Both the position numbers and the translations under genes were made by a program. Under the pieces are notes generated by a model, which saw only the letters and a list, made by a program, of their open reading frames with translations, did no database searches and was not told the origin of the DNA. A DNA stretch of 64,000 bases from Qingshengfaniella alkalisoli (GTDB lineage Bacteria; Pseudomonadota; Alphaproteobacteria; Rhodobacterales; Rhodobacteraceae). Below, piece by piece: positions 44,235-50,165 of this stretch. Where the stretch lies: assembly GCF_007855645.1 (NCBI RefSeq), contig NZ_CP042261.1, positions 1,158,501 through 1,222,500 on the forward strand, written 5' to 3'. Numbering within the stretch: the stretch's first letter is position 1; every line of letters starts with the position of its first letter.

Positions 44235-44732
44235 ATGAAAAGCTTTGTCCCCGGCCCCGACACTCAAAAGGCGTTTCGCGAGGCGTTGGGACAGTTCGCT
44301 ACCGGCGTTACGGTCGTGACGACAAACAGCCCGGATGGACCGATCGGCATCACGGCAAACAGCTTTGCGAGCGTATCGCTCAACCCGCCACTGGTTCTGT
44401 GGTCACCAGCCAAGGCGTCGGCGCGCTATGACGTGTTCGCAATGGCGGAAAGGTTCGCGATTCACATCATGGCCTCGGACCAACTGGATATCGTCCGGGG
44501 CTTTGCCCGCAATCCCGATTTCTTCGACGGGTTATCATGGAACCCCGATGAGGCTGGCGTGCCGCTGATTGACGACTGCTTGGCACGTTTCGACTGTGCC
44601 AAGGAAAGCCAGATGGATGGCGGCGATCATCTGGTCATTCTGGGCCGGGTCCTTCAGGCATCACACCGCACCGGTGCGCCGCTTCTGTTCGCACGAGGTC
44701 AGTTTGGACAATTCAATCTGTTGGACGGCTAG
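44235..44732 (+). CDS. Flavin reductase-like protein
   Basis: A 165-residue protein of the flavin reductase domain family (HpaC/RutF-like), which reduce FMN or FAD with NAD(P)H for a partner monooxygenase or carry flavin themselves. The N-terminal FREALGQFATGVTVVTTNSPDG and GITANSFASVSLNPPLVLW are the family signature; later ILGRVLQA and GAPLLFARGQFG complete the barrel. No partner monooxygenase gene is adjacent. It converges on the minus-strand membrane gene with a four-base overlap. Confidence 0.92.
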   Translation: MKSFVPGPDTQKAFREALGQFATGVTVVTTNSPDGPIGITANSFASVSLNPPLVLWSPAKASARYDVFAMAERFAIHIMASDQLDIVRGFARNPDFFDGLSWNPDEAGVPLIDDCLARFDCAKESQMDGGDHLVILGRVLQASHRTGAPLLFARGQFGQFNLLDG

Positions 44733-45571
44733 GAGTTCTCACGCGGGAGAACCATCGCGATCATCGCCATGGCGCACCCCACCAACGCCAGGATTTGCGA
44801 GGGCCCCAGCGTCGCAAGTTCGGCAGGAGCAAACTGCACAGCGGCCATGACAACGGCAGAAAGAAGTACCGGACCGTAGATCGTCACTGCCCCGCCCAGA
44901 TGGACCACACACAGCACCGCCGCAGCAACGATTGCCAGTTTTGTCGTATCAATATCCACCGGATACCCCCAGAGCGCCCAGATCAAGCCAGCAGTCGAGG
45001 TCAGCGCCGCCCCCAGCAAATGTGCGGCGAGCGCGACGGAATCAGACTGCCTCGGGCGGCACAACATGGCGAGGCCGACCAGACTTCCCGCGACGACGAC
45101 CGGCAATTGCTCATCTGTCATGCCTTCAGGCAAAACAAAGAACTCCGATATATCGCGGGCAGTATTCTGCGGCAGCGCGATCAAGCAGAATAATGCAAGG
45201 GCCGACGCCGACAGAAGCGTGAAGGCCGCATTTCCAACGCCCCGTGTCAACGCCCAGACGGCAAAGGCTATAACGATACTCAGCCCTATCGGAGCAACCA
45301 CACCCCAAACCGTCCCTGCCGCGACCTGATCGGGTGCGATCATTCCGACCGAGGACCCTATCACAAGGTAGATCACGTGCGCCGGGTCGATACGTTGTCT
45401 GTTGGTCGCAAGATCATACCCGGCCACCAATAGCACGGCGCAGGATATCTGTAGCGCGGACTGGACGTTCAACAGATCCGGCCGGAAGATTGGCATCACC
45501 ACGACCAACACAACGACGGCGACAGCCATCAAGCGTCTAATCAGGTGGATAGGCGAAGGGGGTCGAGTCAT
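44729..45571 (-). CDS. Divergent LivM-like membrane protein
   Basis: A 280-residue integral membrane protein with about eight to nine helices. Parts recall the branched-chain amino acid permease LivM: a GYDLATN segment where LivM has its first conserved loop, and HLGGAVTIYGPVLLSAVVMA near the C-terminus like the LivM GGxGTxxGP motif. The usual cytoplasmic coupling loop that contacts the ATPase is shortened (RPRQSDSVALAAHLLGA). Its start overlaps the upstream gene by four bases. With the two upstream genes it forms a transporter-like operon that has no binding protein. Substrate and direction unknown. Confidence 0.7.
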   Translation of the reverse strand: MTRPPSPIHLIRRLMAVAVVVLVVVMPIFRPDLLNVQSALQISCAVLLVAGYDLATNRQRIDPAHVIYLVIGSSVGMIAPDQVAAGTVWGVVAPIGLSIVIAFAVWALTRGVGNAAFTLLSASALALFCLIALPQNTARDISEFFVLPEGMTDEQLPVVVAGSLVGLAMLCRPRQSDSVALAAHLLGAALTSTAGLIWALWGYPVDIDTTKLAIVAAAVLCVVHLGGAVTIYGPVLLSAVVMAAVQFAPAELATLGPSQILALVGCAMAMIAMVLPRENS

Positions 45572-46461
45572 ACCGATACCTTCCCGTTTGCCGCGCCCAG
45601 CCCGACAGCGCCAACGAGCAGCGCGGAGCAGGCAATCAGACCACCATCAACACGCAGCAATTCGCCAAAGCAGAACACGGCCCCGAACAGTAAGGACGTC
45701 AGTGCGCAAAGTAACATCGACCGCATCCCGCAACTGATGAACGTCATGCCCCCGAGGATTGCCACAATTGACAGGCCAGCATGCGGCGCCGTGCTTGGTG
45801 TCGCATGTAGCAGCGCACCCGCAAGCGCCGCCAGAACACATGACAGGACGAAACCGGCAAGCGCGAAGCGGCCAAGGCGCAGGCCAAACATTCGGGCCAG
45901 TTCGGGGTTGCTCTGCGATGCGCGCATCGTCAGGCGTGGCAAGCGCCAATTTCTGAACAGAAGGAACCCGGCACCGAGCAATGCAGCCGCCGCATAAGGC
46001 GACCATCGCGGTAAAATAAAAGCCTGTTCAAAGTCGAGATCATCCAGCCCCACAGTGGCGATGATCGTAACTGCCAGCAGCGCAAGAGTTCCGCGTCTGA
46101 CATCTGGTTGTAGCGGATGCACGAACAGGGCGAACACAGCGATACCAATCAGCCCGACGGCCAATAGAAGGATCGCCGTGAACGCAACCGGATGGATCAA
46201 GTCCCTCGGCAGGTGCGCGAGCAACACGTCCGGCGCGGTGGCCCCAAGAAGCATAAAGGCCGGAAAAGTCAGATTCACGAGATCAGAGAGCCCGTAGAAG
46301 ATGATCAATCCGGCAGCTAGCAGAAAGACGAGCGACGCAACGGTGATCGCATCAAGCATGCTGCTGCGCCAGATATTGGCGGGCCACAGGCTCCATGCAC
46401 CGCCGAGCGTTGCAGTCAGTAGTATAATAATCAGGATCGCGCTGCCAGTTCTGCCGCTCAT
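45568..46461 (-). CDS. Divergent LivH-like membrane protein
   Basis: A 297-residue membrane protein with about eight helices. The similarity to LivH is clearer than in the next gene: GLIIFYGLSDLVNLTFPAFM resembles the LivH loop after its first helices, and RASQSNPELARMFGLRLGRF matches the LivH cytoplasmic coupling loop (RAxxxNPELAxxxG). A late glycine pair in ILGGMTFISCGM fits too. The start shares one base with the ATPase-like gene stop, and the end overlaps the next gene by four bases. It should form a membrane heterodimer with the next protein. Confidence 0.75.
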   Translation of the reverse strand: MSGRTGSAILIIILLTATLGGAWSLWPANIWRSSMLDAITVASLVFLLAAGLIIFYGLSDLVNLTFPAFMLLGATAPDVLLAHLPRDLIHPVAFTAILLLAVGLIGIAVFALFVHPLQPDVRRGTLALLAVTIIATVGLDDLDFEQAFILPRWSPYAAAALLGAGFLLFRNWRLPRLTMRASQSNPELARMFGLRLGRFALAGFVLSCVLAALAGALLHATPSTAPHAGLSIVAILGGMTFISCGMRSMLLCALTSLLFGAVFCFGELLRVDGGLIACSALLVGAVGLGAANGKVSV

Positions 46462-47270
46462 CAGTGGATCGGCCCCTCTCGCGCGCGAGTTTTCGCATCA
46501 AGGAGGATATTCTCCGCGTCGAGCTTCATTGCAAGCTCAGCAGTGTTTTCGGTTATCAGCAAAGACGTCGATCCGCCCCAATGATCCGCAATCAGAGCAG
46601 ACATTTCGGGTCTCGTTTCGACGGGCAGATTGGACAGTGGATCATCGAGCACAACCAGCTCCGGTTCCCGAAGGGTCGCGATTGCGATGGCCAGCAGCAA
46701 ACGCTCGAAAGGAGGAAGTCCTGAAGCGGCACCGTCAAACCCGCCAAGTCGGTTGAACGCGGTGCCCTCCGGCAAGACCCCGTTGCGCCCGCGCCCGGCC
46801 GACAGCCGCGCCAATCGCAGGTTTTCATCGACCGTCAGATCGTCAAATACACCACCACCGCGCGGGATATAGGCGAACCAACGGCGGATCGTGGTGAAGC
46901 GCGCCCGCGCCCGCAGCTGTGTACCGTCCCACAAGACGCGTCCGGCGGCAGGCTGTTCCAACCCCATTACACAGCGCAGAATGTCACGACCTAGCCCGTC
47001 CGTGTCTCCGAGCAGGGCTGTGCAGTCATTTCGTCCCACTGTAAATGAAAGCGCCTGGTGGCCGGCGATCTGCAGCTCCTCCACCCGCATGCGCGCGATT
47101 GTCCTGCGCCGTTTCGGCGCCGTCCGGTCTTCCAGCGGGCGTATACCGGGGCCTTTCACCGCCTCGCGAATCTTTTCGGGAGAGATGTTCGGTGCGACCG
47201 GAGAACCAGCCGAACGCTCTTTCGCGCGACGCAATGCCAGCGCCAGACGTTCCTGTCCGCTGCTATCCAT
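46461..47270 (-). CDS. LivF/LivG-like ABC ATPase with degenerate nucleotide motifs
   Basis: A 269-residue protein shaped like the ATPase of a branched-chain amino acid transporter, with an extra N-terminal region of about 60 residues rich in basic residues. Start ATG 47270 has GGAGGTGTGC ahead. The P-loop position reads GDTDGLGRD (residues 88-96), so the Walker A lysine is replaced (by alignment with GPNGAGKTT it is glycine). The ABC signature reads ASGLPPFER instead of LSGGEQQ, and Walker B reads LVVLDDP, with Asp210 in place of the catalytic Glu. Regions between (CVMGLEQPAAGRVLWDG, FDDLTVDENLRL) remain family-like. It probably cannot hydrolyse ATP normally. Confidence 0.75.
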   Translation of the reverse strand: MDSSGQERLALALRRAKERSAGSPVAPNISPEKIREAVKGPGIRPLEDRTAPKRRRTIARMRVEELQIAGHQALSFTVGRNDCTALLGDTDGLGRDILRCVMGLEQPAAGRVLWDGTQLRARARFTTIRRWFAYIPRGGGVFDDLTVDENLRLARLSAGRGRNGVLPEGTAFNRLGGFDGAASGLPPFERLLLAIAIATLREPELVVLDDPLSNLPVETRPEMSALIADHWGGSTSLLITENTAELAMKLDAENILLDAKTRAREGPIH

Positions 47271-47404
47271 GCACACCTCCGTCGAACTGAAGGAACATGA
47301 AACCAGCCAGAAAGCCCTGCGAATGGCCCGTCCGATCAAACATCAATACCACCGCTCAAAATACTCTGAACCGCCTGCCACGGCCCAGCTAACAGCCGAT
47401 TCAA

Positions 47405-47510: not shown

Positions 47511-48197
47511 TCAGTCAGCGATATTGACGACGACATTGACGGAGGCAGTGATCCCAACCTCTCCGGCGGCGATGGGCATGCCACCATCTGCCATCGAAGC
47601 CGCACGCATCATCATCTCGGGACGTGGAGACGATTGCGGGTCGGAAATCGACTGGATATCGCCGAGTGTCACGTCCGCAGCCTCGGCATACAGCGCGGCC
47701 TTATCCAGCGCATCCTGAACTGCCGCGCGACGGGCCTCGTCAAGCAAAGCCGCGTCGTTCTGCATCCCAAAGGAAAGGCTATCGAGACGGTTTGCGCCAT
47801 CCTCCGTTACTGCACTGTCCAGAAGCGTGCCAAGGGTGGACAGGTCGCGCACGCGCACAGCGAGTACAGATTGCGCCTCGAAGCCCTGCTCAATCAGATT
47901 GCCCTCATTGTCGCGATCACGCAGCGGCATCAGGTTCAGCGTATCGCTTTGCATATCCCGCGCTTCGACCCCGCTGGCTTCAAGCCGCGCAATCAAGGCG
48001 GCGGACGCCTCTCGCATCTGCGTCATCGCAGCGGCGGCACTGTCGTTTCGCGCCACAACGCCGATGCGTATAGTTGCCATATCAGGGGCAGCAGTGGCTT
48101 CGCCCTGCCCTGACACCATGATCTGGCGTGTGTCTGCCTGCGCCACGGAGAACGCGGAAACGAGCGCGGCGGCCAAGGCTACGGTTTTGAGCGACAT
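47511..48197 (-). CDS. SIMPL-domain (DUF541) periplasmic protein
   Basis: A 228-residue protein with a signal peptide (MSLKTVALAAALVSAFSVAQA) and the SIMPL/DUF541 domain: IMVSGQGEATAAPDMATIRI at the start of the mature protein, SALAVRVRDL-like middle (SVLAVRVRDLSTLGTLLDSA) and GEVGITASVNVVV at the end. Members are periplasmic or outer-surface proteins reported to help in oxidative stress or membrane integrity; function is not settled. AAGGAAC precedes the ATG. It diverges from the large GspL/PilM-like gene. Confidence 0.9.
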   Translation of the reverse strand: MSLKTVALAAALVSAFSVAQADTRQIMVSGQGEATAAPDMATIRIGVVARNDSAAAAMTQMREASAALIARLEASGVEARDMQSDTLNLMPLRDRDNEGNLIEQGFEAQSVLAVRVRDLSTLGTLLDSAVTEDGANRLDSLSFGMQNDAALLDEARRAAVQDALDKAALYAEAADVTLGDIQSISDPQSSPRPEMMMRAASMADGGMPIAAGEVGITASVNVVVNIAD

Positions 48198-48311: not shown

Positions 48312-50165
48312 ATGACCGGGTCCTTTGCTCTCCACTTTACCGAATCCGCCATCATCCTGGCGAAATATGTCGGGGCGGAATGGCAGGAATGCGGTCATGT
48401 AGACACCGGATCAACGCAACTGGCCAAGGACGTAAAACAGCTATGCGCTGACGGCGGAGCAACAAACATCGTGGCCGTTCTGCCCGCAGAGCAAATCCGA
48501 ATAGAGACGTTTCCAATCACTCCCGCGCTTGCGGTCGCTGATCCGTCTGACGCGCTGTGCAGTCTGATCGAGGATCGGATCAAGCTGCCTCGGACCGAGT
48601 TCTGCTTCGATTGGCTTATGACCAGTGAAAGCATGGCCGTCGCAATCGTCGCGCGCAAGACAATGCGGGAAGCCGCCGTTTTCGTCACGGCCTGCGGATT
48701 GAAGCTGGCAGGCATGGCCGGGCCCGCCGGATTGCCAAAACTGGCCTCACCGCCATGGTTCGGCGATCTGGATACGATCCTTGACAGCGCGACCGCAGCA
48801 AACGTCGCCCCGATACCTCCGGTCACGCCCATTGCGCCCAAGCGTGCCCCACCACCGGCTGCGGCAGCCAAACGGGCCATTTCATCACCTGCGCCCCCCG
48901 ATATCAACATCGCGCGGGAACACGCCCGTTTCGCGGCCCGTCTGCAACCATTTGAAGGTAATCCCGACCACTTCGAAGATAGCGACGCCTCTGCTCCTGT
49001 CGCCGATGTAGAACGGCGGTCCTTGGGGGCACTTATCGGAAGGCTTCGGCCCAACCCGCCAAAACGAACCGCGACTGGAAAGGCGAAACTCGTTCTGACC
49101 CTGGCGGCGGTTCTGACGCTGGTTCTGGGGACAGTCGTTCTGCTGCCACGCTCGGAACCGGCGACACAACACACCGAAGCCCCGGTCGCAGAAATCATGT
49201 CTGGCAGCGTGCCGGAAGCCACGCCTGAACCGGACGTCGAAGACCCCGCCACGGACGTTACACCGGTGCCGCGGTTCGCGGATGCGGATCTCATCTTTTC
49301 GCCTGACAGCGCCATGCGTCACTCTCCCGTCGCTGCGGATCTGGATGGTTTGGAACAGCCCGGTCTCGACCCGGAGCTGGGCGCGGATGCGGTGGCGCTG
49401 CAAGACGCGACAGGCTTGACGCGGCCGGAAATGGCACTGCGGCTGTCAGCGGTCCCCGAGGCGGGTGAAGCGAGCGGTGAAGACATCGTCATTGCCGACG
49501 ATGCCGGGGCCGATCCCGAACCCGACCCGCTTCTGGAGGCGATGCGCAAGGCACGTCCACCGCAGCGCCCCGACGATCTGGCCGAGCGGTTCGAGCGCTA
49601 CCAGTTCGGTGGACGGACCTTTGCAGAACTCGCGCGTTTACGCCCAACCCAGCGCCCTGACGAGATCGAAGACGCCGCCGCCAGAATCGCCGAAGCACAG
49701 GCATTGATCGCCGAGGCAACGGAGCTCGCCGCTGATCAGACGCCCCGGCCCAAGCTTCGCCCGGATGGTGTGATCGAGCGCGCCGTCGCAGCTCGCGTTG
49801 CGGCGAAAATGGAAGGACGCGAAGATCTGGCCGAAGTCGCAACAGCCGCGTCGACCGCCGCCGTTGCACCGGCGCGCCCGCAACCACAACCGCAACAACC
49901 GGCACCACAGGCGCAGCCGCAGCAAACCGTGTTGACCACGCGCGGCGCTGGCCCTGACAAGATTATCCTCTCTGATATCAATCTGCTTGGGACATTTGGT
50001 AAATCCGGATCGCAACGCGCCTTGGTGCGGCTGTCCAGCGGTCGGGTGATGAATGTCTCGGTCGGTGATCGTTTGGACGGCGGGCGGGTTGCTGCCATCC
50101 GCACCGGTGAACTGACCTACACCAAGGGCAACCGGAACTATCTTCTGCGCATGCCTCAGGGCTAG
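48312..50165 (+). CDS. Bitopic membrane protein: GspL/PilM-like N-domain plus GspC/PilP-like C-domain
   Basis: A 617-residue protein of unusual build. Residues 1-150 are cytoplasmic and resemble the actin-like fold of secretion/pilus proteins GspL and PilM (FALHFTESAIILAKYVG at the start, NIVAVLPAEQIRIETFPI later). One membrane helix lies near residues 258-280 (KLVLTLAAVLTLVLGTVVLL). A long acidic, Pro-rich periplasmic linker carries three RPxxRPD motifs at residues 415, 444 and 479. The last 70 residues (SDINLLGTFGKSGSQRALVR, RVMNVSVGDRLDGG) resemble the homology region of GspC/PilP. No other secretion or pilus gene is nearby. The domain readings are by pattern only. Confidence 0.65.
   Translation: MTGSFALHFTESAIILAKYVGAEWQECGHVDTGSTQLAKDVKQLCADGGATNIVAVLPAEQIRIETFPITPALAVADPSDALCSLIEDRIKLPRTEFCFDWLMTSESMAVAIVARKTMREAAVFVTACGLKLAGMAGPAGLPKLASPPWFGDLDTILDSATAANVAPIPPVTPIAPKRAPPPAAAAKRAISSPAPPDINIAREHARFAARLQPFEGNPDHFEDSDASAPVADVERRSLGALIGRLRPNPPKRTATGKAKLVLTLAAVLTLVLGTVVLLPRSEPATQHTEAPVAEIMSGSVPEATPEPDVEDPATDVTPVPRFADADLIFSPDSAMRHSPVAADLDGLEQPGLDPELGADAVALQDATGLTRPEMALRLSAVPEAGEASGEDIVIADDAGADPEPDPLLEAMRKARPPQRPDDLAERFERYQFGGRTFAELARLRPTQRPDEIEDAAARIAEAQALIAEATELAADQTPRPKLRPDGVIERAVAARVAAKMEGREDLAEVATAASTAAVAPARPQPQPQQPAPQAQPQQTVLTTRGAGPDKIILSDINLLGTFGKSGSQRALVRLSSGRVMNVSVGDRLDGGRVAAIRTGELTYTKGNRNYLLRMPQG

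Follow-up and report, generated by a model that had tools for sequence, protein, structure and literature searches.

Genes and setting of the locus

Three minus-strand genes of Qingshengfaniella alkalisoli, transcribed in the order P0001, P0002, P0003 and here termed the trio, lie on a 2.26 Mb contig of a genome of 3.93 Mb in 5 contigs. Their positions (Table 1) are numbered from the first letter of the window, i.e. the whole stretch of 64,000 nucleotides that was analysed. P0001 and P0002 overlap by 1 base (TGATG), and P0002 and P0003 by 4 bases (ATGA); the coordinates and both overlaps given in an initial annotation of this DNA proved correct when read again on the sequence. P0001 begins with the ATG at 47270, with a GGAGGT ribosome-binding site 4 bases upstream. 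In each of the three genes codon usage in the true frame beats that in the other 5 frames, GC by codon position is normal, as in the neighbouring genes, and all frames are open, with zero lesions across 2.5 kb.

Table 1. Positions of the trio and of adjoining features in the window
Feature	Position	Strand	Remark
Flavin reductase gene	44235-44732	+	
P0003	44729-45571	-	280 aa
P0002	45568-46461	-	297 aa
P0001	46461-47270	-	269 aa
Basic N-terminal extension of P0001, residues 1-60	47091-47270	-	
Ribosome-binding site GGAGGT of P0001	47275-47280	-	sequence read directly
Terminator-like hairpin, SIMPL gene/trio gap	47366-47388	-	consensus scan only
SIMPL-domain gene	47511-48197	-	
Gene for 617-aa protein	48312-50165	+	no Pfam match

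At the distal end of the trio, the oppositely oriented flavin reductase gene and P0003 overlap tail to tail by 4 bases (44729-44732). Immediately upstream, and on the same strand as the trio, is the gene for an exported SIMPL (DUF541) protein. The terminator-like hairpin lying between them suggests that the trio is a separate transcription unit, the scan that located it having returned 7 sites vs 3.6 expected by chance. Beyond the SIMPL gene, on the plus strand, is the gene for the 617-aa protein, the C-terminal end of which appears, by eye, to be GspC/PilP-like.

In 15/15 relatives examined SIMPL is accompanied by the plus-strand neighbour found here at 48312, and in 7 of the stretches a Na/H exchanger-type gene joins the pair. 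Trio genes adjoin this pair in none of the 15 relatives, i.e. the linkage of SIMPL to the trio is not conserved, and in 2 of them the trio's side of SIMPL carries unrelated genes; thus, the trio occupies a junction that was not observed in these relatives. A mobile element or edge repeats at the trio were considered and rejected, convincing repeats being absent, and a search for an RNA element at the trio found none. Assignment as a defence system was likewise rejected, the sole match (PADLOC mad3, E 4e-5) being weak and to a generic ATPase.

Liv/Urt ancestry and loss of the ATP site

P0001 matches Pfam ABC_tran (PF00005) with 34.8 bits (cut-off 25), and its best NCBIfam model is UrtE, at 58.6 bits far under the cut-off of 285.8. 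Within the host genome it is most similar, at 30% identity, to a LivF encoded in an intact binding protein-LivH-LivM-LivG-LivF operon. The AlphaFold model (mean pLDDT 74) retrieves ABC ATPases from the PDB with Foldseek (E 7e-14), relatives being present in the alignment on which the model was built. P0001 is best described as a predicted pseudo-ATPase with an ABC ATPase fold of the LivF/UrtE type. P0002, with 39.3 bits against Pfam BPD_transp_2 (cut-off 26.8), is assigned as a LivH/UrtB-type permease. P0003 has zero matches in Pfam and NCBIfam, and its predicted structure (pLDDT 48) is too poor for fold confirmation; however, comparison by hhalign with a LivM profile built without P0003 gave a probability of 96.5% (E 1e-9) over residues 15-277, and P0003 is classed by this profile as a probable, very divergent LivM-type permease. 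Together, the LivH/UrtB-, LivM- and LivF/UrtE-type matches support the Liv/Urt ancestry proposed for the trio.

The motifs of P0001 were read from an alignment with 88 ABC relatives. At Walker A (GxxGxGK[ST]) the sequence is GDTDGLGRD, without the Lys, where 87/88 of the aligned relatives have GxxxxGK[ST]; the Q-loop is lost, its position reading PRG, and the LSGGQ signature is missing, LPPFER standing in its place. The initial annotation had reported that the Walker A lysine, the LSGGQ signature and the Walker B glutamate were all absent. The first two losses are borne out by the alignment, and the third requires refinement: the catalytic Glu is indeed absent, but is replaced by Asp in a Walker B motif (LVVLDDP) that retains its own Asp. 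The switch reads ITEN where LivF-type relatives have VEQN, a change that is minor and only partly a loss, because those relatives already have Gln, not His. With both Walker A and the signature gone, pairing with a canonical ATPase would still leave both composite sites incomplete, and, as judged by sequence, the description of P0001 as 'nucleotide-blind' holds.

Among positions conserved in ≥70% of relatives, P0001 retains 2/12 catalytic and 14/21 structural ones (Fisher P = 0.01; of the three conservation thresholds this one favours the contrast most, and 80% and 90% give P of about 0.09-0.10, with small counts). The loss of catalytic positions thus looks selective. That the motif losses are an annotation artefact, i.e. 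sequencing error or a wrong frame, is scarcely credible: no other frame holds or restores a canonical motif, a concealing frameshift being thereby rejected, and all of the motifs were lost independently, so that the artefact is refuted as far as a single assembly permits.

The basic N-terminal extension attributed to P0001 is present, with a computed pI of 11.6 over its 60 residues. It carries coding signal, codon usage favouring the true frame, and is predicted to form a helix at residues 4-21 and to be disordered thereafter; confidence in the AlphaFold model is low at residues 20-56.

Missing energy-coupling parts and the docking loops

In ABC importer structures, cytoplasmic loops of the permeases dock the ATPases. 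The equivalent loops are, we presume, the one retained in P0002 and the one shortened in P0003. An alignment with 12 LivH-type proteins places the P0002 loop at residues about 169-199, where it is whole, its conserved Arg-Ala and Gly included. By contrast, the loop of about 30 residues in LivM proteins is reduced to about 10 (169-178) in P0003. P0002 is without the AHG(E) loop that LivH-type permeases conserve, and other conserved residues are lost as well; it may be that solute transport is also gone.

The operon encodes a single ATPase-like gene, with LivG absent. The loss of the P0003 docking loop, the retention of that in P0002 and the lack of a LivG encoded nearby go beyond what had been described for the locus. 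The claim that no solute-binding protein is present is corroborated: none of the genome's 8 Peripla_BP_6 proteins is near the trio, the nearest on the same contig being about 200 kb away. Read from the encoded proteins, the energy-coupling parts (ATP-site residues of both faces, second ATPase, one docking loop, binding protein) are all missing or broken, and the membrane pair stays, along with one presumed docking interface.

In its 3.9 Mb the host has a rich set of ABC importers, with 36 stretches of BPD_transp_2 and about 100 of ABC ATPase type; many intact Liv-type operons are present.

Some sugar importers share one ATPase, and the trio might similarly import with ATP, using a canonical ATPase pair supplied by another operon, P0001 being redundant. 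The abundance of ABC ATPase stretches, about 100, and the intact docking loop of P0002 would allow this, but in P0003, lacking its loop, there is nothing for an ATPase pair to push, a binding protein is absent nearby and P0001 has been retained as the first gene; we consider such borrowing decidedly improbable. It is also unlikely that P0001, or P0002/P0003, acts as a regulator by binding canonical Liv/Urt subunits in a dominant-negative or sensing manner. Partners would be at hand in the many intact Liv-type operons, one of which has the LivF 30% identical to P0001, and the retained loop of P0002 might take a canonical ATPase; however, the similarity of P0001 to its own genome's LivF is low.

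Distribution, and decay versus maintenance

An orthologue of the trio was found neither in the genus (one genome) nor in 298 and 397 genera of the family, nor in 395 genomes of the order, 385 of the class and 399 of the phylum (overlapping samples), nor among plasmids and viral contigs. The matches in these searches were only canonical proteins at the LivH/LivM level. A scan of GTDB genomes with P0001 gave, among the matches listed, general ABC ATPases alone, none more than about 33% identical, the queries being short exact peptides, which may overlook distant relatives. Among the genomes searched the trio is an orphan, found in one only. Conservation of the trio and of its altered motifs across Rhodobacterales, which had been proposed as a check on function, did not materialise in these samples.

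The main rival of an ATP-independent complex is a recently silenced relic: genes long constrained in some unusual role that was lost so recently that there has been too little time for the frames to close. This is possible, though we lean against it. The confinement of the trio to one genome, its extreme divergence and the loss of permease residues alongside ATPase residues all accord with a relic; against it, there is no lesion in 2.5 kb, and neither the codon signal nor the ribosome site nor the start/stop overlaps are damaged.

The open frames can be given a scale. As about 2.5% of single-base changes in the trio create a stop, after about 120 (119) neutral substitutions (4.7%) all of its frames would stay open only 5% of the time, and the number required for 95% breakage falls further if indels are counted. 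In 4000 simulated runs of neutral substitution to the first stop, begun with the host's LivF, LivH and LivM genes, a mean of 0.4/12 catalytic positions was lost before that stop, with a maximum of 5, compared with the 10/12 lost by P0001. These catalytic losses are too many for a neutral phase that left the frames open; it follows that the ATP site went while the frames were still maintained, in the past, and that even the ancestor of a relic would have lived long without an ATPase. The earlier argument against simple decay is thus supported, and now quantified, by the open-frame estimate and the simulations.

A possible ATP-independent complex and its relation to known systems

The reading that we put forward, tentatively and as rather less than an even prospect, is that the trio is a Liv/Urt-type (HAAT) importer stripped of energy coupling and retained as a membrane complex that works without ATP. 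Its ancestor would have been a Liv/Urt-type ABC importer that lost its energy-coupling parts, leaving P0002 and P0003 as a heterodimeric membrane core. P0001 would dock on the sole surviving loop, that of P0002, and serve there in structure or gating, with its basic tail perhaps placed along the membrane or over the face of P0003 vacated by the missing second ATPase. The deletion of the loop in P0003 and its retention in P0002 fit a complex with one ATPase-like subunit, not two. The selective catalytic loss, the incomplete composite sites, the missing LivG and binding protein and the open frames with their intact codon signal also favour this reading; the orphan status of the trio, the residues lost from P0002, the poor model of P0003 and the weaker contrast at stricter conservation thresholds count against it. 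Such a core might let a small polar solute through along its gradient, or be gated by it; candidates are of the class handled by the relatives, i.e. urea, an amide or an amino acid. Assembly, ATP-independence in the cell and solute transport are what we infer from these features, and the role of 'sensor, channel or scaffold' suggested initially is to be taken in the same conditional sense. The bolder proposition, that a bacterial ABC importer has here been turned into a channel, facilitator or receptor independent of nucleotide, its old ATPase surviving as a pseudo-enzyme that acts as scaffold and one docking site having been removed to match, is conceivable, if doubtful.

An importer operon minus its ATP site, its partner ATPase and one docking loop would constitute a natural test of the ATP-free membrane part, the importance of the trio being conditional on expression and selection being shown.

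As in the Liv/Urt (HAAT) importers, a membrane pair of LivH/UrtB type and, probably, LivM/UrtC type and a LivF/UrtE-type ABC fold are encoded in one operon. The trio differs from them in being without LivG, a binding protein and the ATP-site motifs, and in the deletion of one docking loop, its proteins sharing no more than about 30% identity with canonical Liv/Urt members.

That an ABC ATPase may have one dead site is well established. Working ABC proteins can bear degenerate residues at Walker A, Walker B, the H-loop and the signature, among them the degenerate-site exporters Pdr5, ABCG5/G8, TAP, CFTR and SUR, of which Pdr5 is the extreme, every motif of one site being changed (PMC7756269). 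In these exporters, however, one site is still canonical, and the degenerate site of several binds ATP where this has been measured (PMC7756269). In P0001, by contrast, neither half-site is present.

A different precedent is the solitary BioY, the membrane part of an ABC-type importer, which was reportedly observed by Finkenwirth in 2013 (reference 26 of PMC4820897) to transport without an ATPase module. BioY has an unrelated fold (ECF S-component) and retains no pseudo-ATPase, but it resembles the complex proposed for the trio in that the membrane part of an importer is reported to act without an ATPase module.
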